Source: Lachnospiraceae bacterium
GTDB taxonomy: Bacteria > Bacillota > Clostridia > Lachnospirales > Lachnospiraceae
Assembly (NCBI GenBank): GCA_017474455.1
Contig: JAFVHP010000024.1
Location: 49,826 to 113,825, forward strand
DNA: 64,000 nucleotides
Direction of reading: 5' to 3'
The notes beneath the pieces were generated by a model. The model was not told where the DNA came from. It saw only the letters and a list, made by a program, of their open reading frames with translations, and did no database searches. Shown here piece by piece: positions 2,049-23,444 of this stretch (position 1 is the stretch's first letter; each line of letters begins with the position of its first letter). Both the position numbers and the translations under genes were made by a program.

Positions 2049-3014
2049 TTATACCAGATGGCAGGCGGCAAAATGACCGGGCTCGATCTCCCGCAGGGCG
2101 GGCGTTTCAGTCCTGCATTTATCGCATGCCTTCGAACAGCGGCCGGCAAAGCGGCAGCCCGGCGGCGGATCGATGGGGCTGGTAACCTCGCCCTTCAGTT
2201 CGATCCTTGTCCTTGAGAGTTCGACATCCGGATCCGGGATCGGGATCGCGGAGAGCAGGGCCCGTGTATAGGGATGCACGGGATTCTCATAAAGTCTTGT
2301 CGATTCCGTGAGCTCGACAAGGGAGCCCAGATACATGACCGCGATGCGGTCCGAAATATGCTTGACCATGGCCAGGTCGTGGGCTATGAAGAGATAAGTG
2401 AGCCCGCGTTCCTTCTGCAGGCGGATCAGGAGGTTGACGATCTGGGCCTGGATGGAAACGTCGAGGGCAGATATCGGTTCGTCGCACATGATGAATTCGG
2501 GGTCCACGGCAAGGGCCCTGGCAATGCCGATACGCTGGCGCTGGCCGCCGGAGAACTCATGGGCGAAGCGGTTGGCGTGTTCCGTATTTAACCCGACCTG
2601 GTCCAGCAGTTCATAGACACGTTTTGTGCGGTCGTTCCTGCCGGAGGCCAGCCCGTGGATATCGATGCCTTCGGCTATGATGTCGGCAACGGTCATGCGG
2701 GGGTCGAGGGACGCGTAGGGATCCTGGTAGATGATCTGGGCCCGGCTGGTGAACTTCAGCCTTGCAGCCCGGTCCATGGCATGCACGTCTTCCCCGTCGA
2801 ACAGGGAGAGACCGCCGGTCTTCGGATATACGCCCATGGCGGTGCGCCCGCAGGTCGTTTTGCCGCAGCCGGATTCGCCGACCATGCCCAGTGTCTCGCC
2901 TTTGTAGATGGTGAAGGAGACGCCGTCCACGGCTTTGAGTGTGCCGCCCGCCGACTTAAAGTATTTTTTCAGATCACGGACCTCAAGAAGAGGCTGTCTG
3001 TCCTGTGTATTCAA
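2049..3014 (-). CDS. oppF: oligopeptide ABC importer, ATPase subunit OppF
   Basis: This is the second ATPase of a peptide importer, working on the cytoplasmic face as a heterodimer with OppD. Of 321 residues, Walker A is GESGCGKT near residue 47, the ABC signature is FSGGQRQR, and Walker B is FIMCDEPISALD. The C-terminal oligopeptide-transporter extension includes PPGCRFAGRC followed by further Cys (CSKACDKC), the Cys pattern common in Opp/Dpp ATPases. Its start overlaps the end of oppD by four bases (ATGA type), indicating translational coupling. Opp and Dpp subfamilies cannot be told apart from this alone, so substrate specificity (oligopeptide or dipeptide) is inferred. Confidence 0.93.
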   Translation of the reverse strand: MNTQDRQPLLEVRDLKKYFKSAGGTLKAVDGVSFTIYKGETLGMVGESGCGKTTCGRTAMGVYPKTGGLSLFDGEDVHAMDRAARLKFTSRAQIIYQDPYASLDPRMTVADIIAEGIDIHGLASGRNDRTKRVYELLDQVGLNTEHANRFAHEFSGGQRQRIGIARALAVDPEFIMCDEPISALDVSIQAQIVNLLIRLQKERGLTYLFIAHDLAMVKHISDRIAVMYLGSLVELTESTRLYENPVHPYTRALLSAIPIPDPDVELSRTRIELKGEVTSPIDPPPGCRFAGRCSKACDKCRTETPALREIEPGHFAACHLV

Positions 3015-4045
3015 TCTTTATTCTCCTGTTTTTTCAGGTTGTGCATAAATTCCGCGTCTGTCCGGGGCGCCCGTTCATCCTGCAGCCAGCAGCTGGCTTC
3101 ATGACCGTCGCCGAAATCCGTTACAGGCGGTTCTTCCTCGCGGCATACGGGCATACAGTAGCGGCACCTGGTGCAGAAGGGACAGCCCTTCGGCGGGTCG
3201 AGCAGGTCCGGCGGCGTGCCTTCGATCGTCATCAGTGACTGTTTGTTCTCAAGATCGAGCCTGGGTACGGCGTTCAGGAGCGACCAGGTATACGGATGGT
3301 GCGGATGGTAGAAGATGTCGGCGGAGTTGCCGCGTTCCACGATCTTCCCGGAATACATGACACAGATCCTTTTGACAATGCCGGCCACGACGCCCAGGTC
3401 GTGAGTGATCAGGATAATGGCGGCGCCGGTATCCTTCTGCAGCTCTTTCATCAGGTCCATGATCTGGGCCTGGATGGTGACGTCGAGCGCGGTCGTGGGT
3501 TCATCCGCGATCAGGAGCTTCGGCCCGCAGACCAGCGCCGTCGCGATCATCGCGCGCTGGCGCATGCCGCCCGAGAACTGGTGGGGATACTCCCTGACGC
3601 GGATCTCGGGATTCGGGATGCCGACCCGGCGCAGGATCTCGACCGCTTTCCCGGCGGCTTCCGCCCTGGATGCCTTGCCGTGGACCAGCAGCACTTCTTC
3701 GATCTGTTTGCCTACCCGCATGGTGGGATCCAGGCTGGTCAGGGCATCCTGGAAGATCATGGCACACTCGTTGCCGCGGTAATCCCGCCACTGTTTCTTA
3801 GTGTTCTGAGTCAGGTCTTTTCCTTCGAACCAGATGTGGGAGCCTTCCTTCACCTCGCCGGGATCCATGATCAGTCCCATGATGGATTTGGCCGTGACGG
3901 ACTTGCCGCAGCCGGATTCGCCGACGATGGCGACGGTCTCGCCGCGCTTTACGTCGAAGCTGACGCCGCGGACGGACTGCACTTCACCGGCATATGTGTG
4001 ATAGGAGACTCTCAGGTCTTCGACCTTTAAAAGCAGATCGTCCAT
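3011..4045 (-). CDS. oppD: oligopeptide ABC importer, ATPase subunit OppD
   Basis: A 344-residue peptide-importer ATPase partnering OppF. Walker A is GESGCGKS near residue 41, the signature FSGGMRQR and Walker B LLIADEPTTALD. The C-terminal tail carries a dense Cys cluster, GCPFCTRCRYCMPVC, matching the iron-sulfur-like C-terminal motif described for DppD-type ATPases; cluster binding here is inferred. The gene is 26 bases downstream of oppC and overlaps oppF by four bases. Length and domain order are normal for the family. Confidence 0.93.
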   Translation of the reverse strand: MDDLLLKVEDLRVSYHTYAGEVQSVRGVSFDVKRGETVAIVGESGCGKSVTAKSIMGLIMDPGEVKEGSHIWFEGKDLTQNTKKQWRDYRGNECAMIFQDALTSLDPTMRVGKQIEEVLLVHGKASRAEAAGKAVEILRRVGIPNPEIRVREYPHQFSGGMRQRAMIATALVCGPKLLIADEPTTALDVTIQAQIMDLMKELQKDTGAAIILITHDLGVVAGIVKRICVMYSGKIVERGNSADIFYHPHHPYTWSLLNAVPRLDLENKQSLMTIEGTPPDLLDPPKGCPFCTRCRYCMPVCREEEPPVTDFGDGHEASCWLQDERAPRTDAEFMHNLKKQENKD

Positions 4046-4071
4046 ACTGCCTGTATCCTTTCAGATAACGG

Positions 4072-5034
4072 TTATTTGCGGAGCCTGGGATCGAGCGCGT
4101 CGCGCAGGCCGTCGCCCAGGAGATTAAACGAAAGAACGATAAGGACCAGCACCAGCGCGGGGAAGAGGAGCTGGAGCGGGTAGAATTCCATGGAAGCCTG
4201 TCCGAGGGAGATCAGTACGCCCAGGGAAGTATTGGGGCTCTCGAGGCCGATCCCGAGAAAGCCCAGGGTGGATTCCTGGAAGATATAATTCGGCAGCGAG
4301 GTCGCTATGTTCAGGATCAGGATGCCGATCGTATTCGGTATGAGGTGCCGGGAGATGATCCTGCCGGGCGAGGCGCCCAGTGTCCTGGCGGCCATGATAT
4401 ACTCGGCATTTTTCAGCTGCAGCACGACGCCGCGGATGGCCCTGGCCGTATTGCACCAGGAGGTGACGCACAGGGCGATCAGGAGGCTGGGGATATTGTT
4501 GCCTAGGACCATCATGACCAGGATGACGACGAGCAGGTAAGGGAGGGAGCGCATGATCTCGATGATGCGCATCATGATGTCGTCGACCCAGCCGCCGAAG
4601 AACGCCATGATGCCGCCGTAGGCGCTTCCGACGACGATCTGGACCAGCGTACAGACCACGGCGATCAGGAGGGAGACCCTGGCGCCGTAGCAGACCCTGG
4701 CGAACAGGTCCCTGCCCAGAAGGTCCGTGCCGAACCAGTGCTCCGCGCTGGGGGGCTGGTTCTTGTTGACGGGATCCATGGCGATGTAGTCCTGGCCGCA
4801 GAGCACGGGCCCCAGAAGGGCCATCAGCACCATCAGGACAAGGACAGCGAGGGAGATCATGGCGACAGGATTCTTTTTCAGCCTCCGCCAGGCATCCTGC
4901 GCATAGGTTATGGTGGGGCGCGCGATGGCTTCCTTATCGGAATCCAGGCAGCCTTCTATGGTAAAGCGCGGATCAGCAGCCGCGGCGTTTGTATTTATAT
5001 TCATATCCGTATCCGGAGTTTTTATCTTTTCCAT
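4072..5034 (-). CDS. oppC: oligopeptide ABC importer, permease subunit OppC
   Basis: A 320-residue inner-membrane permease. After a polar N-terminal tail of about 50 residues there is a first membrane helix (MISLAVLVLMVLMALLG), then the OppC-type N-terminal motif (NKNQPPSAEHWFGTDLLGRD) and the BPD_transp_1 domain with the coupling-helix region RTLGASPGRIISRHLIPN. It ends in GDGLRDALDPRLRK, the typical OppC C-terminus. It pairs with OppB to form the transmembrane pore and lies five bases downstream of oppB. Confidence 0.93.
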   Translation of the reverse strand: MEKIKTPDTDMNINTNAAAADPRFTIEGCLDSDKEAIARPTITYAQDAWRRLKKNPVAMISLAVLVLMVLMALLGPVLCGQDYIAMDPVNKNQPPSAEHWFGTDLLGRDLFARVCYGARVSLLIAVVCTLVQIVVGSAYGGIMAFFGGWVDDIMMRIIEIMRSLPYLLVVILVMMVLGNNIPSLLIALCVTSWCNTARAIRGVVLQLKNAEYIMAARTLGASPGRIISRHLIPNTIGILILNIATSLPNYIFQESTLGFLGIGLESPNTSLGVLISLGQASMEFYPLQLLFPALVLVLIVLSFNLLGDGLRDALDPRLRK

Positions 5035-5039
5035 ACTGC

Positions 5040-5993
5040 TTATTTGTGCAGGCGGATCCGGGGATCCACGAGGGTATAGAGAATATCGACAAGAAAGACG
5101 ACCACTACATAAAGGGCGGCCATCAGGACCGTCTGCCCCAGGACGATGGAAAGGTCGCGGGACTGCACGGATTCAACATAATAACGGCCGAAACCGGGTA
5201 TCGAGATGATCTTTTCGATGAAGAACGAACCGGTCAGGGCGAAGGCGACGCTCATGGGGAGCGAAGTGATGATCGGGATAAAGCTGTTGCGGAGCACGTG
5301 CCGCCGGATGACCTGGGCTTCGGACAGGCCCTTCGCCCTTGCCGCCAGGACGTAATCCTGGCCCACGACGTCCAGCATGGATGTCTTTAAAAGGCGCGAA
5401 TAGGTGGCGATATAGGAGAAACAGCCGGTCAGCGTAGGCAGGACCGTGTACTTCCATCCGCCCAGCCACAGGTCTTTCCCCTTCGGCCAGCCGATGATGG
5501 GGAACAGATGCAGCCTCCCGGCTACATATTTCTGCAGCAGGAGGCCGAAGATCAGCGTGGGTACGGAGATCATGAGTACCGAGAAAAAGATGACGAGATA
5601 GTCTATCCAGGTGCCGCGGAACATCGCGGCCAGAACGCCCAGCAGGAGCCCGACGGTGATGCCGATGATGACTGTCTGGAGCCCGAGCCTTGCGGACGGG
5701 GCCAGCGTTTCCTTCAGCAGGCGGCTGATATCGTAGCCGGGCATGGTGACGGATTCGCCGAAATCTCCCTTCAGCATGCCTTTCATCGTAATGACGTACC
5801 GTTCGAGGACAGGCTTGTCCAGCCCGTATTTGAGATACAGGTTATTGCGTACGGATTCGGGCAGGCGGTCAGCCCTGGATTCCAGGGGATCGCCGGGAAC
5901 TGCGGCCAGGAGGAAAAACGTCGCGGTGGCTATGATGAACAGGGTGATGAACATCTCGACCAGCCGTTTCAGGATATACTTCAGCGTCTGCAT
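5040..5993 (-). CDS. oppB: oligopeptide ABC importer, permease subunit OppB
   Basis: A 317-residue inner-membrane permease. It has an N-terminal helix (RLVEMFITLFIIATATFFLL) and the OppB/DppB hallmark AVPGDPLE, then membrane helices and the coupling motif AARAKGLSEAQVIRRHVLRN. The end DILYTLVDPRIRLHK is typical. It forms the channel with OppC. A stem-loop lies between this gene and oppA upstream, consistent with oppA being expressed at a higher level than the rest of the operon. Confidence 0.93.
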   Translation of the reverse strand: MQTLKYILKRLVEMFITLFIIATATFFLLAAVPGDPLESRADRLPESVRNNLYLKYGLDKPVLERYVITMKGMLKGDFGESVTMPGYDISRLLKETLAPSARLGLQTVIIGITVGLLLGVLAAMFRGTWIDYLVIFFSVLMISVPTLIFGLLLQKYVAGRLHLFPIIGWPKGKDLWLGGWKYTVLPTLTGCFSYIATYSRLLKTSMLDVVGQDYVLAARAKGLSEAQVIRRHVLRNSFIPIITSLPMSVAFALTGSFFIEKIISIPGFGRYYVESVQSRDLSIVLGQTVLMAALYVVVVFLVDILYTLVDPRIRLHK

Positions 5994-6042
5994 GGATTTT
6001 GCCCGTCGCTCCTTTGCTTGGATTGATAGATGGATGCAAACA

Positions 6043-6072
6043 CAGAGCCTGCAGCATGTGCCGCAGGCTCTG
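6043..6072 (-). terminator. intercistronic stem-loop between oppA and oppB
   Basis: CAGAGCCTGC (6043-6052) pairs perfectly with GCAGGCTCTG (6063-6072) around a 10-base loop. The base run after it on the minus strand is only weakly T-rich (TGTTTG), so partial termination or protection of the oppA mRNA 3' end is more likely than full termination. Such stems after binding-protein genes are common in ABC importer operons. Confidence 0.7.
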
Positions 6073-6092
6073 CATGGTCATCTGTTAAAAGA

Positions 6093-7877
6093 TCATTCGA
6101 TCACGTAAGCGCGTGAGAAGTCAAGCCTCGGGCCGACGAAAGGACATTCGATACCCTTGACCTTGTTGCTGATGCAGATGATGGTATCTGTGTACATATA
6201 AGGGATAGCGGCAACTTCATCCAGGACGACCCACTTCTCGGCGGCCGCGAAGATCTCTTCACGGGCCTTGTCGTCAGTGGTCGTTGCCAGGTCAGCCGTG
6301 ATCTCATCGAATACGGCTGCCAGTTCCTGTGTCCATCCGGAATAACGGATAGAAGTGCCGTGGCTGCTCCACATCTCAAGGAACGCGATGGGATCGTTGT
6401 AGTCGCCGTTCCAGCCGGCCTGTCCGATATCATATTCGCCGGCGTTCCTGGCTTCGCGGAACAGGGAGCTGTCGCCCTTGACATCAACATTGACAGTGAT
6501 GCCGAACGTGGTCTCCCATACGTTCTTCCAGTAATCCTGCTGCTGCTTTTTGATGACAGAGTCGCCTGTGCAGAGATAGGTCAGAGTTACTTCGGAAAGA
6601 TCCCTTGTATCGCCGAGCTCTTCCATGCCTTCCTTGAAGAGGGCCTGAAGCTTTTCGGTATCCAGCGCGTACTCATCGAAAACGGGCTTTAAGGGTTCGG
6701 CCACGTCATCGCGGAAGTTCAGGCTGCCGCCCATAACGCCGTAAGGAACGAAACCGTAAGCCGGATTGTTGCGGTCAAAGATGACCTTTGTGAACTCTTC
6801 ACGGTTGCAGGCAAGCGAGAGGGCAAGACGGATCTTCTGGGATTCCATAAGGCCGGAAGTGGAGTTGCCCTGGCGGTTGAAGTAGAAATAAGTGACGTTC
6901 GGGAAGTATCCGTTGACGGTGGTGTAATCGCCCGCGATCGTGCCGTCGCGGTAAGGAGCCACATAGTCGCCTGAAGGCTGGAGTGCAGCCAGCTCATTGT
7001 TCTGGAACATGGTGTTCTGTGTGGAGACTTCCTCTATGTTGATGAGGGTGACCTCGGTAAGCTTTACGTTCTCAGCATCCCAGAAGCTCTCGTTCTTTGT
7101 CAGGACGACCTGGTTGTCCTTGATGAATTCGGACACGACGAAAGGTCCGCACCAGACATGGGTGGAAGGATCCGTGTCATACATGTCGCCGGCGGCTTCG
7201 ATCACGTCCAGACGGACGGGATCCATGTAAGTCGTGCTGATCATGGACATGAACTGGGGAGCCGCGCTCTTTAATGTGACCTGGAGGGTAGTGTCGTCAA
7301 GCGCTTCTACGGCAAGCGCGTCCATGGCCGCTTCGATGTCGGCATCGGTCGCTTCTTCGGCATCCATTGTGTAGAGTTCGGTCCCTCCGACGATATCGCC
7401 GATGAAGGAAGCGAAGTCAAAAGCGTTCCTGGGATCGCCGATCCTCTTCCAGGAATCGACAAAGTTCTGGGCAGTGACCTGTACGCCGTCACTCCAGTAA
7501 TACTCCCTCAGATGGAAGGTATAAACAGTTCCGTCATCGCTGATATCCCAGCTTTCGGCACCCGCGGGACGAAGGACGTCATTACCGTTCTCGTCGACTC
7601 CGGGACGGACGAGGCCTTCCAGGACCATGGACTGGAGCTGGATCTCCTGCTCGGAATAGTTCGCGTTGTTGTCGAAAGAATAGAAGTTGGTGGCTGTCCA
7701 GGGGATCTGGATCGTCTGGTCGGCAGCCAGGACTTCTTCACCGGAAGCCTCCGCAGCGGCTTCACCTGCTTCTGCTGCCGGGGCCTCGGCGGTTCCCGCA
7801 CCGGCGGCAGCGCAGCCGGCCAGCATGGAAACAGCAAGGACAGAGGACAGCAGGATCGTCATCAGTCTCTTTTTCAT
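6093..7877 (-). CDS. oppA: oligopeptide-binding lipoprotein OppA (SBP family 5)
   Basis: A 594-residue extracellular peptide-binding lipoprotein that feeds OppBCDF. The signal peptide has a lipobox LAGC with the lipidated Cys at residue 22, then an Ala/Glu-rich linker of about 30 residues. The SBP_bac_5 body follows, with family-like stretches such as VYTFHLREYYWSDGVQVTAQNFVDSW broken over residues about 115-140 and a C-terminal part around AIPYMYTDTIICIS. The RBS GGAGGAAA sits just upstream of ATG. It is the first gene of the operon and has its own promoter-like sequence inside the end of the upstream gene. Confidence 0.93.
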   Translation of the reverse strand: MKKRLMTILLSSVLAVSMLAGCAAAGAGTAEAPAAEAGEAAAEASGEEVLAADQTIQIPWTATNFYSFDNNANYSEQEIQLQSMVLEGLVRPGVDENGNDVLRPAGAESWDISDDGTVYTFHLREYYWSDGVQVTAQNFVDSWKRIGDPRNAFDFASFIGDIVGGTELYTMDAEEATDADIEAAMDALAVEALDDTTLQVTLKSAAPQFMSMISTTYMDPVRLDVIEAAGDMYDTDPSTHVWCGPFVVSEFIKDNQVVLTKNESFWDAENVKLTEVTLINIEEVSTQNTMFQNNELAALQPSGDYVAPYRDGTIAGDYTTVNGYFPNVTYFYFNRQGNSTSGLMESQKIRLALSLACNREEFTKVIFDRNNPAYGFVPYGVMGGSLNFRDDVAEPLKPVFDEYALDTEKLQALFKEGMEELGDTRDLSEVTLTYLCTGDSVIKKQQQDYWKNVWETTFGITVNVDVKGDSSLFREARNAGEYDIGQAGWNGDYNDPIAFLEMWSSHGTSIRYSGWTQELAAVFDEITADLATTTDDKAREEIFAAAEKWVVLDEVAAIPYMYTDTIICISNKVKGIECPFVGPRLDFSRAYVIE

Positions 7878-7916
7878 TACATTTCCTCCGTGAAATTTAG
7901 AGTGTTAACTGCATAT

Positions 7917-9126
7917 TTAAACATTATAACAGCTTCCCAGTGCATCCAACAGCTTTTTCACGTCAGCAGCGGTCGTAAAGGGAGAAACAGATATCCGGAT
8001 AAAGCCTTCTTTCCCCTGGCTGACGAATACTTTCCGTTCGGCAAGCGCTCTGGTCAGGGCAGCGCAGCCGCCTTCACAGCTGCCGGTACAAAGAAGCAGG
8101 CTGTGGCAGCGGTGAGCCGGATCCGTGCAGCCGGCGGTCTTTATCCCGAGCCGGTCCAGCCCGGCCAGGATCTCGTCACAGCATTCGCCGATATGCGCAG
8201 AGATCTCATCCATACCGATCGAGAGCAGGCGTTTCAGTCCGGATCTTAAAACATATATCCCTTCGAAGGGGAGCGTACCGGCTTCCAGCATCCGGGCATC
8301 TGTCCTGTCGATCGTAAGCTCGCACTTATCCCTGTCGAAACGGGAAGCCTCATTGGGGCCCGCAAAGACCGGGTGCAGAGCCGGCAGCAGCCTGTCGCTG
8401 CAGTAAACGAAACCCGCGCCTTCGGTGGCGAGAAGACCTTTATAGCAGCAGGTGCAAAGACCGTCGACGCCAAGGTCCTGCACGTCTACCGGAATGAAGC
8501 CCAGGGCCTGGATCGCGTCGGTGATCACGAAGATGCCGCGCCTGTGCGCTTCTTCGCAGAGATACTTTAAGTCGGTCCTGTAACCGCTGGAAGACTGCAC
8601 ATAGCTTAAGGCAATGACCTTTGTATCCTCATCCGCGGCGTTAAGGAGGTCTTCAGCCGTGACATACAGACCGTTTTCGGCTTTTACGACGCGGACCTCG
8701 AAGCCTTTTTCGCGAAGGTGCAGGCAGGGCAGCAGGACAGCGACATGTTCTATATCGCAGACGACGATGTTTTCGGGCTTTTGACCGTCCGGGCCCCGGC
8801 CCCGCCATTCAAGGGACTGGAGCAGCAGGTTCATGCCCTGCGTGGTATTCAGTGTGAAAGCGAGATTTTTAACGGAAGGCGCGTTCAGGAACGAGACGGC
8901 CAGTGACCTGGTCTCGTTTGATCACGTCGATCGTACGGCCCTTGCCGGAACCTCCGGCTTTAACAATGCCGGGATAGATGTCGGATTTGTCCCTGAAGTA
9001 TTCAGCGGCGGCCTCCTCCTGGAAGCGGGCCCCGCAGTTCTCATAGGCAATATCAAAAAAAGCATATTCGTTCGCGGCCGGGAACTGGCTGCGGAGTTCA
9101 CCGACCCATGGTCTTTCCTTAATCAT
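7917..9126 (-). pseudogene. class V aminotransferase / cysteine-desulfurase-like PLP enzyme with a one-base frameshift
   Basis: The two-frame reading gives about 402 residues of a fold-type I PLP enzyme of the class V aminotransferase group. The first part (from ATG 9126) covers the N-terminal arm; the second includes AFTLNTTQGMN (PLP phosphate region), VITDAIQALG (cofactor Asp) and CYKGLLATEGAG with the likely Schiff-base Lys. The frames join at about 8912-8920: removing one base near 8915 gives the smooth reading IKETRSLAVSFLNAP. The ATG lies inside the 3' end of the upstream cyclodeaminase-like gene (8-base overlap), so the two are coupled. The substrate is unknown: Cys/selenocysteine or another amino acid. 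Real pseudogene and sequencing error are both possible. Confidence 0.8.
7923..7951 (-). promoter_or_regulatory. candidate promoter for the opp operon
   Basis: On the minus strand TGTTGG (plus 7946-7951) and a perfect TATAAT (plus 7923-7928) are 17 bases apart. The -10 overlaps the last codons of the upstream aminotransferase gene (stop at 7919-7917), and the transcript would start about 40 bases before the oppA ATG. The -10 is strong and the -35 weak. Confidence 0.55.
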
Positions 9127-10072
9127 TTTCCGTTACCCTGTCGTATAGATATTTGGCTGCGGCGATGTCTTCCACCGCCAGTCCCAGCGCTTCGAATACA
9201 GTGATCTGGTCATCGCTTTCGCGGCCGGGGATCTTCTTCAGAAGGATATCCCCGATGGTGCCGCGCAGGTGTTCCCTGGTGATAACGCCTTCCTTAAGCG
9301 GGAAGAGATAATCCCCGCTTTCATGTTCAACGGAATCGATACTGTCACCGAAAAATGCCGCCCTCCTGACCGCTTCGGAATCCAGTTCCCTTGCGTTCGG
9401 GGCGCACGCGCCGACAGCGTTTATGTGCGCGCCGCTCTTGAGCCAGCTTCCGCACAGGACGGGCAAGGCGGAGGGGGTCACGGTGCAGATGATATCCGCG
9501 TCCCTGACGGCTTCTTCGGCGGTATCGCAGACACGGATGTCGATGCCTCTGGCGGCACCTTCACCTGCCTTTGCGGCAAGTGCCCCTGCCGCCTCAGGGA
9601 AAGCATCCCATAAAGTGATCGTTTTTATGTCAAAGAAAGGGACGATGGCATCGATATGGCTTTCGCCCTGGGTGCCGCAGCCGAGGATGCAGAGCCGGGA
9701 ACTGTCCGGCCTTGCCAGAAGGCGTGTGGCTACGGCCGAGACGGCTCCGGTACGGATCTTTGTAACGCTGGTGGCATCAATACCCGCAAGAAGGGAACCG
9801 TGCTCCGATTCGAACAGGAGGATCTGTCCCTGGTGGGAAGGGTAGCCGCTCCCGCGGTTGGTGTGGTAAACGCTGATGGTCTTTACTCCGAAATATCCGT
9901 CGAACCAGCCCGGCATAAGGCCGAGTACATTGGTATTGGGCAGGTTGATGGCCGTCCGCAGATACTGGACACAGGAACCTTCGGCCAGTTCATACAGTGT
10001 CTTTTCCATCAGTTCGACGCAGTCGGTACTTTTTAAGTGTTCTTCCACACAGGCGCTGTCAAGAATGATCAT
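9119..10072 (-). CDS. ornithine cyclodeaminase / mu-crystallin family protein
   Basis: This family comprises NAD(P)-dependent enzymes such as ornithine cyclodeaminase, alanine dehydrogenase of the archaeal type and ketimine reductase. The protein shows the family's N-terminal region with Lys (GYFGVKTISV), SVTKIRTGAVSAVATRLLAR, the Rossmann nucleotide motif LGCGTQGESH and the INAVGACAPNARELD block. I prefer ATG at 10072 (MIILDSACVEE, 317 residues) because AAAGGA lies at good spacing before it; an in-frame ATG at 10093 adds seven residues. It is coupled to the class V aminotransferase, suggesting a two-step amino-acid pathway, but the substrate cannot be read from sequence. Confidence 0.85.
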   Translation of the reverse strand: MIILDSACVEEHLKSTDCVELMEKTLYELAEGSCVQYLRTAINLPNTNVLGLMPGWFDGYFGVKTISVYHTNRGSGYPSHQGQILLFESEHGSLLAGIDATSVTKIRTGAVSAVATRLLARPDSSRLCILGCGTQGESHIDAIVPFFDIKTITLWDAFPEAAGALAAKAGEGAARGIDIRVCDTAEEAVRDADIICTVTPSALPVLCGSWLKSGAHINAVGACAPNARELDSEAVRRAAFFGDSIDSVEHESGDYLFPLKEGVITREHLRGTIGDILLKKIPGRESDDQITVFEALGLAVEDIAAAKYLYDRVTEND

Positions 10073-10120
10073 AGTCTGCTGTCCTTTCTTCATTTATAAT
10101 GAATGATGACTTACATGCAG

Positions 10121-18964: not shown

Positions 18965-19909
18965 ATGGAACTTGCGGGGAACGGGTTTTCACTGACGGCA
19001 GAAGTTGTATTCATGGAATGGCTGCAGGCGCATATCGGGGAAGGTGCGATGCGGCTGGTATCGGCCTTTTCCATGTTCGGGGAAGAAATGCTTCTGGTAC
19101 TGCTCCTGGGATTTATATACTGGTGCTGGGATAAAAAAATGGGACGGTTCGTTGGGCTGAACATGCTTATGACAGTTGTATGGAACCCGATGATCAAAAA
19201 CATATTCATCCGCAGAAGGCCATACTTCGACCATGAGAATATCAGGATCCTGCGGCCGGTGGATCCAAAATCGGATATTTATGATATTTCGGCGCAGGGG
19301 TATTCATTCCCCAGCGGACATTCGGCAAACGCGGTCTCCGCATATGGTTCCATAGCGGTCTATGAGAAGCAGAGCAGCCGGCAGGGCGGCAGATCGTACC
19401 GGTATCCTGCGGCAGCAGCTGCTGTGCTCTCGTTTCTTGTCGGTTTTTCAAGGATCGCCGTAGGCGCGCACTATCCGACGGATGTCCTGGGCGGCTGGCT
19501 CCTGGGGCTCCTTATCATTTTTGCGGTACCGGCTCTTTGCAGAAAGGTAACGGACAGGAAACTTCTGACCGTCATCCTGCTGGCACTTACGCTCCCGGGA
19601 CTGATCTGGTGCAGGAGCGAAGACTATTTTTCCGGCCTGGGGCTATTCCTCGGGTTTCTGGCCGGCTCGGCTTTTGAAGACAGATATGTCCGTTTCGAGA
19701 ATACCCGGAGATTCCTGCCTTCCCTTCTGCGGCTGGTGCTGGGACTGGCGTTGTTCCTTGCTCTGAATGCGGTACTGAAATTGCCGTTCTCAAAAGAATT
19801 TCTGGACAGCGGCGTATACGCTGCCCTGCTGGTGAGATGTGCCCGTTACGCGGTCGTCTCCTTTATCGAATTCGGCGTGTACCCGTTCCTTTTCAGATGG
19901 ATAAAATAA
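18965..19909 (+). CDS. PAP2-superfamily membrane phosphatase
   Basis: A 314-residue membrane protein with the complete phosphatidic-acid-phosphatase type 2 catalytic triad of motifs: KNIFIRRRPYF (K-x6-RP), SFPSGHSAN (PSGH with catalytic His) and SRIAVGAHYPTD (SR-x5-H-x3-D with the nucleophilic His). Such enzymes dephosphorylate undecaprenyl pyrophosphate, phosphatidate or related lipid phosphates at the outer membrane face. Several hydrophobic segments follow the catalytic core (residues about 195-310). RBS GGAGG is eight bases before the ATG. Lipid substrate is unproven; an undecaprenyl recycling role is plausible. Confidence 0.88.
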   Translation: MELAGNGFSLTAEVVFMEWLQAHIGEGAMRLVSAFSMFGEEMLLVLLLGFIYWCWDKKMGRFVGLNMLMTVVWNPMIKNIFIRRRPYFDHENIRILRPVDPKSDIYDISAQGYSFPSGHSANAVSAYGSIAVYEKQSSRQGGRSYRYPAAAAAVLSFLVGFSRIAVGAHYPTDVLGGWLLGLLIIFAVPALCRKVTDRKLLTVILLALTLPGLIWCRSEDYFSGLGLFLGFLAGSAFEDRYVRFENTRRFLPSLLRLVLGLALFLALNAVLKLPFSKEFLDSGVYAALLVRCARYAVVSFIEFGVYPFLFRWIK

Positions 19910-20040
19910 CACGCGCGATAAGGAGAACAGGCAGGTAGACCAGCCCGTATCAAAACTGGTATCATTATAAATACAGTATATATTTACTCAACGATGTGCC
20001 CCGGGCGAAAGGAAGGGGCGATGCCAAAAAGGAGATGCCT

Positions 20041-20496
20041 ATGTTTGACAGTTATCTGATCCGCAAAGACTCTCTGGAGAACGTGACAGAGAACGGCAAA
20101 GTCGTGGGATTCCGCTTTGCAGTGCGTATCGCAGACTACAGGGGCTGCATGCTTTCACTGCACAACGGTTACTACATCGAAGTGGATGGTGAAGTCTATC
20201 CGAGAGAGGTGCAGAAATTCGAGATCAACGGAAAAGCACCGAGAGATTTCCAGGAGATCAAAAAAGCAGTCTGGGAACACTGGGACTTTGATGACGAAGG
20301 CTATGTTTATGTTGAGAAGGAAGGCGGGCTTGCGCCCGGCGTACACCATGTGGGGATCCAGCAGTCTATCCTGGTGGCCTACGGATATCTGCCGATGCTG
20401 CCCAAATGGGTAGAAGAACCGCCGGTACCGGGAACAGGGGCAGGAGCGGGCAAGAGCTCGTTCATCTGCTACTATGACCTGGAACTGCAGAGCTGA
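20041..20496 (+). CDS. C-glycoside deglycosidase beta subunit (DUF6379 family)
   Basis: A 151-residue protein matching, by recall, the small beta subunit of bacterial C-glycoside deglycosidases. Landmarks are NGKVVGFRFAVRIADYRG, an IEVDGEVYPREVQKFEING strand pair and GVHHVGIQQSI. In known systems the beta subunit packs on a TIM-barrel alpha subunit and the complex cleaves the C-C bond of 3-oxo C-glycosides such as oxidised puerarin. The ATG at 20041 follows AAAAAGGAG at ideal spacing; an upstream in-frame ATG at 19996 is less likely. The alpha-like gene starts 21 bases downstream. A similar domain recurs at the C-terminus of the protein at 21602-23017. Confidence 0.75.
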   Translation: MFDSYLIRKDSLENVTENGKVVGFRFAVRIADYRGCMLSLHNGYYIEVDGEVYPREVQKFEINGKAPRDFQEIKKAVWEHWDFDDEGYVYVEKEGGLAPGVHHVGIQQSILVAYGYLPMLPKWVEEPPVPGTGAGAGKSSFICYYDLELQS

Positions 20497-20516
20497 GGCA
20501 AAAAGGAGGACAGACG

Positions 20517-21569
20517 ATGGGGATTAAAAGAGGAGTATCCTTATACAGCTACCAGCAGGCGCAGTTTTTCAAACAGCTGGATTGGAAGGGACAGATAAAG
20601 GAAGTACATGACAATTTAAAGACAGACGGCATCGAGATCATCGACGAAGCGACGATCCACAGGTATCCTTTCCCTACGGAAGAGTTCATTGCGGACTGGA
20701 ACAACTATATGGCACAGTACGAGATGAAGGCCGTGACGATGGACGTATACTTGGATGCGCTTCAGTTCCGTGACCATGTCATGAACTACCATGAAGCGGC
20801 AGAACGCCTTAAAAGGGACCTGCGCATTGCGGCGTCCATGGGATTTGAAAACGTAAGATGCCTTTCAGGCGTCCCGATCCAGGTGATCGAACTGGCGCTG
20901 CCCACTGCGGAGAAGATAGGGGTCCGTATCGGCAAGGAGATCCATGCTCCGATGCCGATCAAGCCCAGGAGCAAACCGAAGAAGAACGCGATGGGCTTTG
21001 AGATCAGTTCCAAAGGTGTAGAAGAAGTCATGGAACTCAGAGACAGGACAGGCAGCCCGTTCGTGGGACTCGTCCCTGACTTCGGTATCTTCCTGCACGA
21101 GCCTTCGGATGTAACAGTGGACTATTTCCGCAGGAACGTTCCGAACCCCGATGCCGTAGATTTCATCCGTGAATTCGGCGGGGAATATGACCTGGATGAA
21201 CTGATCCGCCTTTTGAACGAGAAGTACCCGGGACACAGCATGGACGGCGGTTCGATCGAACAGCTCTCGCTCCATGAATCCTGCGCGGATCCGGAAGATA
21301 TCCGTGAGATCGTGCCTTACATCGTGAGTATCCACGGAAAGTTCTACCACATGACCGAGATCCCGGGCAGGCCCGGCGAATATGAGGACAAGGCGATCTA
21401 TTATGAAAGACCGATCGAGATCCTCAAGGAAGAAGGCTTTGACGGCTATATTGATTCAGAATATGAAGGCCAGAGGCACCAGCAGGACAGGGGAGAGGAA
21501 TACCTGCCTGACGAGGTGGAAGAAGTAAGGCGCCATCATGAGATGCTCGAGAGGCTGATCAATAAGTAA
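20517..21569 (+). CDS. C-glycoside deglycosidase alpha subunit-like TIM-barrel protein
   Basis: A 350-residue sugar-phosphate isomerase/epimerase-like (AP-endonuclease 2 fold) protein, the expected partner of the preceding beta subunit. Metal-site candidates in family order are Glu141 (GKEIHA), Asp188 (VPDFGIF), His273 (SIHGKFY) and Glu315 (DSEYEG), the Glu-Asp-His-Glu set seen in Mn-dependent C-deglycosidases and related isomerases. It likely performs beta-elimination-type cleavage of a 3-keto C- or O-glycoside. No Gfo/Idh/MocA-type oxidoreductase to make the 3-keto sugar is encoded nearby. RBS AAAAAGGAGG precedes the ATG. An ordinary sugar isomerase function is the main alternative. Confidence 0.75.
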   Translation: MGIKRGVSLYSYQQAQFFKQLDWKGQIKEVHDNLKTDGIEIIDEATIHRYPFPTEEFIADWNNYMAQYEMKAVTMDVYLDALQFRDHVMNYHEAAERLKRDLRIAASMGFENVRCLSGVPIQVIELALPTAEKIGVRIGKEIHAPMPIKPRSKPKKNAMGFEISSKGVEEVMELRDRTGSPFVGLVPDFGIFLHEPSDVTVDYFRRNVPNPDAVDFIREFGGEYDLDELIRLLNEKYPGHSMDGGSIEQLSLHESCADPEDIREIVPYIVSIHGKFYHMTEIPGRPGEYEDKAIYYERPIEILKEEGFDGYIDSEYEGQRHQQDRGEEYLPDEVEEVRRHHEMLERLINK

Positions 21570-21601
21570 AGAAGCAGACAACAAGGTTTACGGAGGTATT
21601 T

Positions 21602-23017
21602 ATGGGACATTTTATCAAAAGAGGCGTAACGATCTACAGTTTTAAGGAGATGGTCGCGACCGGCCAGATGACCTGGGGCGACTGCATCGCGAGGCTTACG
21701 GCCATGGGCGTGACCGGTATGGAACTTCTGGGCCAGCTTTTCTTCCGCAACTGCCCGGAAGTCAACCAGGAAGACCTGGCCAACTGGAAGGAAATGATGT
21801 GGCGTTACGGCACCAAGACGGTCGCGCATGATTTCTTCGTTGACAAGACCATGTTCAAGGGCAGGGACCTTACCCTGAGGGAATCTGTCGAAGTACTCAA
21901 GCGCCATGTACAGTTCGCGGCAGCGATCGACTGCCCGATCATCCGTATCGGCGGCACCTTCGACCCCGAACTTTTCAGGCAGGCGAAGCCGATCTGCGAG
22001 GAGTACGGCGTTACACTCGGCGTGGAGATCCACAACGGTTCTTCCTCCTGGATCCTTCCGTCCATCCAGAAGACGCTCGATATCATCGCGCAGGCCGATA
22101 CGCCGTATCTGGGCATCATTCCCGATATGAGCATGTTCGTCGAACGCATCGTGGACAGCACATATTTCGTCCAGGGCGCGCTCAGGCAGGGCGTTGACCG
22201 TGAATTCATCGAATTCATGAAGAAGATGTATCTGGAAGTCAGCAATGAAGAGTACCGTGACCGCTGCGACAAGCTGCTGGCCGAGGAAACAGATCCCGCG
22301 AAGAAGTCGTTCATCGTCCAGTGCCGCAGGACCGAGAACCATGATCCGAAAGAACTTGCCGAACTTATGCCCTATGTTCGTCATGTACACGGAAAATACT
22401 GGGAAATGGATGAAGACTGCAACGAGACGTCCATCAACTACGCCGGCGTCCTTCCCGTCCTCATCGAAGGCGGATACGAAGGATATATCTCAGCCGAGTA
22501 TGAAGGCCGCCCCGCTGACGGCGACGTCTTCAAGCCGCAGGAAAGATACCAGAAGATGCTCGACAAGTATCTCGGCAAATTCCCGAACTTCCCTGAGCCC
22601 GCAGAGCCTGTCAAAGTCACCGATACGGAAGTCCTTTCCAATGTCGGCTACAAGAACCGCTATGATGAGGACGGCAACTGCTGCGGATTTGAGATCTACA
22701 CGCGCTGCTTCTATTACAGAGGCATCCCGCTGTGCCTGATCGATGCCATGGAAGTCAGTGTCGACGGCGAGAAATTCGGTGAGGATAAGCTGACCATCGA
22801 AGTCGAGGACGCGAGCTTCAAGTTCAAGGATATGGCCACAGTGCAGGCATATTACTGGAACTACGGCCATCTGCTGACAGTAGTCGTGGACAAGCCGGGC
22901 GGACTGGACGAATCCGTCCCGCATAAGTTCGATTACATGCACCGTCTGCGCACCTACTACCTGCCGTTCAACCATACAGGCACGGCTTCAATGGAACTGA
23001 CGGCAATAAAGGAGTAA
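21602..23017 (+). CDS. natural fusion of C-glycoside deglycosidase alpha and beta subunits
   Basis: A 471-residue protein. Residues 1 to about 330 form a TIM barrel related to the preceding alpha-like protein, with the same candidate ligands: Glu142 (GVEIHNG), Asp175 (IIPDMSMF), His263 (HVHGKYW) and Glu299 (SAEYEG). Residues about 345-471 resemble the small beta protein: DEDGNCCGFEIYTRCFYYRG aligns with NGKVVGFRFAVRIADYRG, and the DASFKFKDM and later strands follow in the same order. It begins 32 bases after the alpha-like gene and a strong terminator follows, so all three probably form one transcript. Both active sites look complete, suggesting two deglycosidases with different specificity or one mixed assembly. 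Family assignment rests on recall of motifs. Confidence 0.72.
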   Translation: MGHFIKRGVTIYSFKEMVATGQMTWGDCIARLTAMGVTGMELLGQLFFRNCPEVNQEDLANWKEMMWRYGTKTVAHDFFVDKTMFKGRDLTLRESVEVLKRHVQFAAAIDCPIIRIGGTFDPELFRQAKPICEEYGVTLGVEIHNGSSSWILPSIQKTLDIIAQADTPYLGIIPDMSMFVERIVDSTYFVQGALRQGVDREFIEFMKKMYLEVSNEEYRDRCDKLLAEETDPAKKSFIVQCRRTENHDPKELAELMPYVRHVHGKYWEMDEDCNETSINYAGVLPVLIEGGYEGYISAEYEGRPADGDVFKPQERYQKMLDKYLGKFPNFPEPAEPVKVTDTEVLSNVGYKNRYDEDGNCCGFEIYTRCFYYRGIPLCLIDAMEVSVDGEKFGEDKLTIEVEDASFKFKDMATVQAYYWNYGHLLTVVVDKPGGLDESVPHKFDYMHRLRTYYLPFNHTGTASMELTAIKE

Positions 23018-23058
23018 ATAACTCTCCTGTTATCAAACAGTTCTGACGGTATAAAAGA

Positions 23059-23096
23059 GCCGCCGGCCCGGTCTGATCCGGACCGGCGGTTTTTTG
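23059..23096 (+). terminator. rho-independent terminator of the deglycosidase operon
   Basis: A GC-rich stem, CCGCCGG(C)CCGG with CCGG(A)CCGGCGG around a TCTGAT loop, is followed by six T residues. It closes the operon 40 bases after the fusion gene. Confidence 0.92.
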
Positions 23097-23153
23097 CTGT
23101 CCGCATGACTGACACGTCAAAAGAAAAATATAATTTATTTATGCAATATATAG

Positions 23154-23182
23154 TTGACAATATTGCAAATGCAATATATACT
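23154..23182 (+). promoter_or_regulatory. consensus promoter with a palindromic operator in its spacer
   Basis: TTGACA (23154-23159), a 17-base spacer and TATACT (23177-23182) form a near-perfect sigma-A promoter. The spacer is a perfect dyad, ATATTGCA-AA-TGCAATAT (23160-23177), ending at the -10. A second ATGCAATATATA lies just upstream (23141-23152). The layout suggests autorepression by the HTH protein encoded 44 bases downstream. Confidence 0.82.
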
Positions 23183-23225
23183 TTGCATCATACAGAACAT
23201 ACCATACAGGCCAAGGAGATCAAGA

Positions 23226-23444
23226 ATGAGAAATCTGAAGATGAAGTTCAGGCGGATCGAGCTGAATATGTCTCAGACAGAACTGGCCGAAAAGGCCGGC
23301 GTAACGAGGCAGACGATCGGCCTTATCGAAGCCGGGGAATTCAACCCGACGATCAAGCTCTGCTGCGCGATCTGCAGGGCGCTGGGCGTAACACTGAACG
23401 ATCTTTTCTGGGAGGAGGAAGACGATGAGCAAGGTAAAGAATAA
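23226..23444 (+). CDS. small XRE/Cro-type HTH transcriptional regulator
   Basis: A 72-residue DNA-binding protein that is almost entirely one helix-turn-helix: NMSQTELAEKAGVTRQTIGL covers helices 2 and 3 and IEAGEFNPTIKLCCAICRAL the rest. The acidic tail is EEEDDEQGKE. The start at 23226 was chosen because AAGGAGA lies eight bases upstream and the family begins with MRNLK-like residues; longer readings upstream run through the promoter. Its end overlaps the next gene by 20 bases, so the pair is coupled. It probably represses its own promoter through the spacer dyad. Such regulators paired with a small membrane protein are common in Firmicutes. Confidence 0.88.
   Translation: MRNLKMKFRRIELNMSQTELAEKAGVTRQTIGLIEAGEFNPTIKLCCAICRALGVTLNDLFWEEEDDEQGKE

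Follow-up and report, generated by a model that had tools for sequence, protein, structure and literature searches.

A putative split C-glycoside deglycosidase and an alpha-beta fused relative encoded side by side in a Lachnospiraceae genome

C-glycoside-cleaving gut bacteria decide whether compounds such as puerarin become active aglycones, and the closest described systems are their C-glycoside deglycosidases (CGDs). In AgCGD2, according to the accessible text of Mori et al. 2021 (PMC8563793), Mn is held by E147, D179, H269, K271 and E305, H149 acting as the base and E307 assisting it. For PuCGE, the available portion of Bitter et al. 2023 (PMC10628242) names His143, Glu301, Tyr303 and Tyr39 of the beta subunit as key residues: the beta exchange Y39F costs more than 99% of C-glycoside cleavage and lowers O-glycoside cleavage only ∼2.4-fold; 3-keto-phlorizin is cleaved as well, and the isolated alpha subunit retains ∼1.4% of that activity. 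The locus considered here occupies positions 20041-23017 of a 64,000-nucleotide stretch of Lachnospiraceae DNA (‘the window’), and had been read in a first-pass annotation, made from the letters alone, as a CGD island holding a split alpha/beta pair and an alpha-beta fusion. Homology gives good support to the view that the window encodes two CGD-type lyases, and it is likely that these act on C-glycosides. The reading preferred below, which appears quite probable, is that they are metal-dependent beta-eliminases of 3-keto-glycosides, each complete and of the CGD kind: one a split alpha/beta complex, the other a single chain from an old subfamily of its own.

Three plus-strand open reading frames make up the locus, in an operon-like run: a CGD beta subunit of 151 aa (20041..20496), a CGD alpha subunit of 350 aa (20517..21569) and a single-chain alpha-beta fusion of 471 aa (21602..23017), in which an alpha domain (residues 5-324; 21614..22573) and a beta domain (residues 342-453; 22625..22960) share one open frame. 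The Pfam family CGDB (PF19906, C-glycoside deglycosidase beta subunit), which we take to be the former DUF6379, matches the small protein with E 8e-38 and fusion residues 342-453 with E 4e-23; AP_endonuc_2 (PF01261) matches the split alpha with E 3e-11 and the fusion N-terminus with E 1e-16. The top solved relative of both alphas is 8qvc_A (E 4e-54 for the fusion, 6e-46 for the split alpha), followed by 7bvr, 9m3b, 7bvs and others, 7bvr_A matching with E 1e-37 (fusion) and 7e-22 (split alpha). The split beta matches 9m3a_B with E 2e-15, and solved chains that match the window beta parts carry the name DUF6379. These profile and PDB matches are far beyond chance, and the family assignment of the first-pass annotation stands.

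The residues known from the solved enzymes are also in place. By alignment, the metal-binding set of AgCGD2 corresponds to E142, D175, H263, K265 and E299 in the fusion, with base H144 and helper E301, and to E141, D188, H273, K275 and E315 in the split alpha, with base H143 and helper E317; at the level of sequence this agrees with the metal-ligand motif proposed beforehand. In the alignment of the fusion to 7bvr_A, H144 falls opposite H143 and R303 opposite Y303; the equation of 7bvr with PuCGD rests on the chain name DgpB and on the residue numbers H143/Y303. In the beta parts, Y33 of the split subunit aligns with residue 39 of 9m3a_B, and Y372 of the fusion occupies the same column. Because all seven residues and the beta Tyr are kept, both window enzymes look complete. 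The seven residues are intact in 34/34 alphas of this genome, and a single deviant (L043_3369, base His to Asp) occurs among the 78 alphas aligned; the key Tyr is present in 33/33 betas of the genome and in 77/77 aligned. As a control, six TIM barrels outside the CGD family, taken from the stretches around the CGD loci, were compared: none has all seven, and four share five or six residues or residue types at loosely aligned places, as kinship within the superfamily would lead one to expect. Both window alphas carry a lid insert of the long kind (84 residues between D188 and H273 in the split alpha); by lid length the alphas of the genome comprise nine with 31-40 residues and 25 with 79-102. 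Separately, two TIM-barrel proteins of locus L029 (1517-2446 and 4202-5068) have an H-N-H motif in place of E-x-H, which recalls the His residues that serve as metal ligand and as base in the O-glycoside eliminase AtOGE.

The relation between pair and fusion was examined in trees of 78 alpha and 77 beta domains, drawn from this genome, from other genomes of the genus and family (whose CGD loci were sampled in part) and from the loci of a scan for fusions; L044 (which repeats L061), C19_99301 (the beta fragment of a frameshifted gene) and L066_13853 (a weak match) were dropped. The trees were quickly made and leave many forks unresolved (26/75 and 33/74 inner branches open), the beta tree being built on 113 columns only. 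Within them the 15 alpha-beta fusions form one clade, with SH-aLRT support of 100 in the alpha tree and 98 in the beta tree and no split member inside; it divides into two subclades, the window type (the window fusion, L036, L037 and L038) and the rest. The window split pair sits elsewhere, with G038 and the contig 41 locus of alpha-beta-alpha order. Its identity to the fusion is 25% in alpha (81/319 columns) and 23% in beta (26/112 columns). The alpha tree and the beta tree agree with each other (Mantel r 0.79 over 76 pairs; 0/999 permutations as high). By these sequence comparisons pair and fusion are distant paralogs, and two separate enzymes, as first proposed, are therefore likelier than a mixed assembly. 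Origin of the fusion by tandem duplication of the adjacent pair is rejected on the same identities and the separate clades.

Fusions in the opposite, beta-alpha, order lie nearest to split pairs and at different places in the trees. That at C19:133439 is sister to G025 (supports 99 and 83), as is that at L060:6441 (supports 100 and 98); L067, outside the trees, is nearest by BLAST to L062 and C6:6311, and the L059 fusion has an unresolved position. The three placed in the trees all fall outside the alpha-beta clade. From these placements the alpha-beta order looks to have arisen by one event, and the beta-alpha order by at least two. The remark that a fused form is unusual thus holds at most for the alpha-beta order, given the beta-alpha fusions, the solved single chain 8qrz among them; the alpha-beta form itself recurs, as one clade.

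Its distribution was followed by one profile scan of genome contigs, with an alignment of three fusions as query (records of this genome were possibly left out of the resulting list). It returned 11 alpha-beta fusion loci in six assemblies: three each in uncultured Eubacteriales CO.O101 bin 251 and in a horse-faeces metagenome-assembled genome (MAG), two in a yak-abomasum MAG, and one each in MAG AlinenLipids bin-6025, Schaedlerella arabinosiphila DSM 106076 (L039) and Catenibacillus scindens DSM 106146 (L044/L061, identical over 10,283 bases). The last, placed by NCBI in the family Lachnospiraceae, is also genome G127 in the list for the window's family, and by profile it has 14 CGDB domains, two of them within alpha-beta fusions. 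NCBI would very likely put the window's genome in that family too, although the two classifications may set family limits differently. The 2024 genome paper on C. scindens names four DgpBC, and the word ‘fusion’ is absent from the main text available (PMC11170127); this suggests that, even in a cultured, characterised strain, a tally of ‘DgpBC’ pairs may overlook some members, including fused ones. The accessible parts of PMC12141560 and PMC10628242 describe no fused CGD, and ‘DUF6379’ was not found in the literature located on C-glycoside deglycosidases; most subscription papers lay outside the search, so that neither observation is proof of novelty. Searches for the papers belonging to PDB entries 8qvc, 8qrz, 8umc, 8un2, 9m3a and 9m3b gave only unrelated ones.

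The genome as a whole shows an extreme family expansion of CGDs. The PF19906 profile finds 33 beta domains in 2.62 Mb, and the stretches around them hold 34 alphas, a count that an alpha far from any beta would escape. Four chains are fused: three alpha-beta (the window, C19:141571 and C26:193016) and one beta-alpha (C19:133439). The other genomes searched have at most 16 betas each. Matches occur in 7/61 genomes of the genus (next highest count 9), in 16/200 of the family (next highest 14), in 35/397 of a larger family sample, in 16/392 of the order and in 4/398 of the phylum; this genome is included in each, the samples overlap, and the counts for G000 in the two family samples and in the order and phylum samples, and those for G127 and G106 in the sample of 397, are to be taken as ‘at least’. 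The six genomes reached through the fusion loci have 16, 7, 8, 3, 9 and 14 CGDB domains. By way of comparison, C. decagia has six dgpBC clusters and 11 dgpA, a number of DgpA called exceptional in the text available (PMC11170127). Contamination is an unlikely cause of the 33 copies, because 26/33 domains lie on contigs >90 kb and the assembly is 96.55% complete with 1.3% contamination. Recent amplification as the main cause is rejected on low paralog identity (alphas with a median pairwise identity of 29%, a nearest-paralog median of 58% and 2/561 pairs >70%) and on the sequences of other genomes interleaved with many of the copies in the trees.

Three loci of the expansion depart from the simple pair. 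At C19:99137-99666 (L025 7638-8167) a beta gene, adjoining an intact alpha, is broken into two frames that overlap, one with model positions 3-66 and the other with 71-104, by frameshift or sequencing error. At C41:49458-52209 (L014 6459-9210) the order is alpha-beta-alpha, with two alphas to a single beta, each of them closely related to the window alpha. At C19:132920-135982 (L022 7921-10983) the beta-alpha fusion gene separates the two genes, beta and alpha, of a split pair from another clade.

CGDs act on 3-keto sugars, and the preferred reading would call for a 3-oxidase. None adjoins the island, as had been said of it: the nearest Gfo/Idh/MocA match on the contig, C6:36609-36815, is ∼33 kb from the pair. 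The suggestion that the enzyme be sought elsewhere in the genome was a good one, for contig 30 holds one clear DgpA homologue (C30:82016-83083; E 2e-85, 290 bits to 7xr9), with a different CGD pair 3 kb away; the remaining 12 matches in the DgpA search are 26-36% identical. Among relatives, a DgpA-type gene lies within ∼1.3 kb of the fusion at 4/11 loci: 22 bases away in L039 (E 9e-202, 673 bits to solved DgpA), 20 bases in L041 (E 6e-101, 341 bits to DgpA; 368 bits to DgpA1), 79 bases in L042 (39% identical to C30:82016) and ∼1.2 kb in L037 (41% to C30:82016). In L043 and L046 the Gfo/Idh/MocA gene near the fusion is of another kind; at L036, L038, L040, L044 and L045 comparison with the gene set of this genome gave none, L038, L040 and L045 ending at a contig edge on one side.

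From homology, residue conservation, phylogeny, copy number and oxidase-gene association in some relatives, all computed here, we infer activity, substrates, assembly and physiology as follows. Oxidation of the glucosyl C3-OH would come first, by the Gfo/Idh/MocA 3-oxidase encoded elsewhere (the DgpA homologue of contig 30); the 3-keto sugar so formed would be bound by the metal in Glu-Asp-His-(Lys)-Glu and would lose H-2 to the His of E-x-H; the beta part would supply the aglycone pocket, and its conserved Tyr would polarise the phenol; finally, the C-C (or C-O) bond would break to give the free aglycone and a 3-keto-glycal. The fusion would be self-contained, split enzyme and fusion would most likely differ in aglycone range, and both would belong to a set of ∼33 lyases that strip sugar from plant glycosides.

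Several observations pull the other way. At 7/11 relative loci the surroundings of the fusion yielded no DgpA-type gene; the Gfo/Idh/MocA genes of this genome are not significantly near its CGD genes (1/15 within 5 kb, 5/15 within 10 kb, p 0.12); the operon has no oxidase, and none of its genes was recognised as coding for a transporter or regulator. Tyr303 of PuCGE is replaced, by Arg in the fusion and Gln in the split alpha, so that the aglycone of the window enzymes probably differs from puerarin. Moreover, the residues that are kept would also suit an O-glycoside eliminase.

One might then suppose that the main substrates of these eliminases are 3-keto-O-glycosides (ordinary aryl glucosides), with C-glycoside cleavage minor or absent. 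Such a role, which we regard as unlikely though worth serious attention, accords with the cleavage of 3-keto-phlorizin by PuCGE, and in small part by its alpha alone, as given in the portion of PMC10628242 available; with the loss of Tyr303; and with the breadth of the family here, the low median identity among alphas suggesting a range beyond C-flavonoids. What stands against it is the beta Tyr, far more important for C- than for O-glycosides in that same portion and kept in every beta of the genome; still, a residue found in all 77 aligned betas may be a constant of the family, and so say little about single members.

The first-pass annotation had left room for a mixed assembly, a hybrid oligomer where the split alpha would also be served by the fusion's beta tail, or the fusion's alpha by the split beta. 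The CGDs solved from gut bacteria are alpha4beta4 (PMC8563793, in the part accessible), the contig 41 locus offers two alphas per one beta, and three of the four fusions of this genome directly adjoin a split pair. Those three pairs, however, fall in two clades, and the window fusion has the full residue set, with alpha and beta in corresponding clades, apart from those of the adjacent pair; a hybrid is thus improbable. A further reading would make the proteins ordinary isomerases or epimerases of sugars that carry an accessory domain and have no part in glycoside cleavage. The TIM-barrel superfamily includes many isomerases, and NCBIfam has no model above its cut-off for any of the three proteins and sub-threshold matches that include some epimerases, but CGD chains are the best solved relatives by a wide margin, the CGD residues and beta domain are present and relatives have DgpA-type neighbours, so that this reading is very improbable indeed.

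The signals around the genes are in keeping with a single unit, and the boundaries, gene order and strong terminator given at the outset were right. The longest frame of the beta gene opens at GTG 19996, yet ATG 20041 has an AGGAG (20030..20034, plus strand, read from the sequence) six bases upstream; the intergenic gaps are 20 bases (beta/alpha) and 32 bases (alpha/fusion), and all three genes have a good ribosome-binding site. An intrinsic terminator (23060..23095, plus strand), with a 12-pair hairpin (11 G-C pairs) at 23060-23089 followed by T6, closes the run. Seven sigma-70-like sites lie in 19850-23250, where 3.0 ± 1.9 are expected by chance, and none upstream of 20041 is convincing. Composition (GC 0.532, against 0.542 for the window) is unremarkable and gives no case for foreign origin. 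Farther off in the window, minus-strand genes at 2049-10093 encode parts of an oligopeptide-type ABC transporter, a class-V aminotransferase and an ornithine cyclodeaminase-like protein.

Across the genome, DUF3502 lipoprotein binding proteins are enriched near CGD loci: 11/21 lie within 5 kb, a span covering 10% of the genome (binomial 2e-6), and 13/21 within 10 kb (binomial 1e-5), both tests ignoring clustering. These 21 matches are the most among the 61 genomes of the genus; genus-wide co-expansion with CGDs is weak, G058 and G050 having 10 and 14 DUF3502 matches and no CGDB match. LplB-type permease genes at ≥59% identity number only two, query included, and many of the binding proteins may share one permease. 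An AraC-type regulator (helix-turn-helix) joined to a GH39-like domain occurs six times near CGD loci by clustering, one of them checked with Pfam; L031 8981-11431 is a member of this cluster, whose relatives lie next to fusions in L039, L040 and L044. None of these three kinds of gene is inside the window operon.

A broader scenario, to be held tentatively and with somewhat less than even confidence, makes the organism a glycoside specialist by oxidation and elimination: one or a few broad 3-oxidases would feed >30 aglycone-tuned CGD lyases, with the lipoprotein binding proteins nearby serving uptake. The alpha-beta single chains would then be a distinct class of CGD from one fusion, now replacing the split pair, and in some species part of a dgpA operon. 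A natural single-chain CGD might be simpler to express and engineer than the two-part complexes, and 33 diverged CGDs with catalytic residues kept would be a ready panel to map the residues that set aglycone range.

Set beside known systems, the window enzymes share with DgpBC/PuCGD (the puerarin CGD, 7bvr) and AgCGD2 (7dnm) the TIM-barrel alpha with E-x-H, D, H-x-K and E-x-E, the key Tyr of beta and the lid insert; they differ in that the fusion is one chain, that PuCGE Tyr303 has become Arg (fusion) or Gln (split alpha) and that the operon lacks dgpA. EuCGD (DfgAB, 7bvs) belongs to the same family, but its alpha is lidless in the text accessible (PMC8563793), whereas the window alphas are of the long kind. 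The closest solved match of both window alphas in sequence, the alpha plus DUF6379 beta of 8qvc/8qvd/8umc (depositors' names), is a split complex, unlike the fusion. A natural fusion of both CGD parts is also found in 8qrz/8un2, a 435-aa single chain named ‘Sugar phosphate isomerase’, with the beta part at 6-115 and the alpha part from ∼142; its order is beta-alpha, that of the window fusion alpha-beta, and 8qrz itself is outside the tree set. The fusions of C. scindens (L044/L061) and S. arabinosiphila (L039) are of the same clade and order as the window fusion and 46-49% identical to it; they belong to the other subclade, and the Schaedlerella fusion adjoins dgpA.

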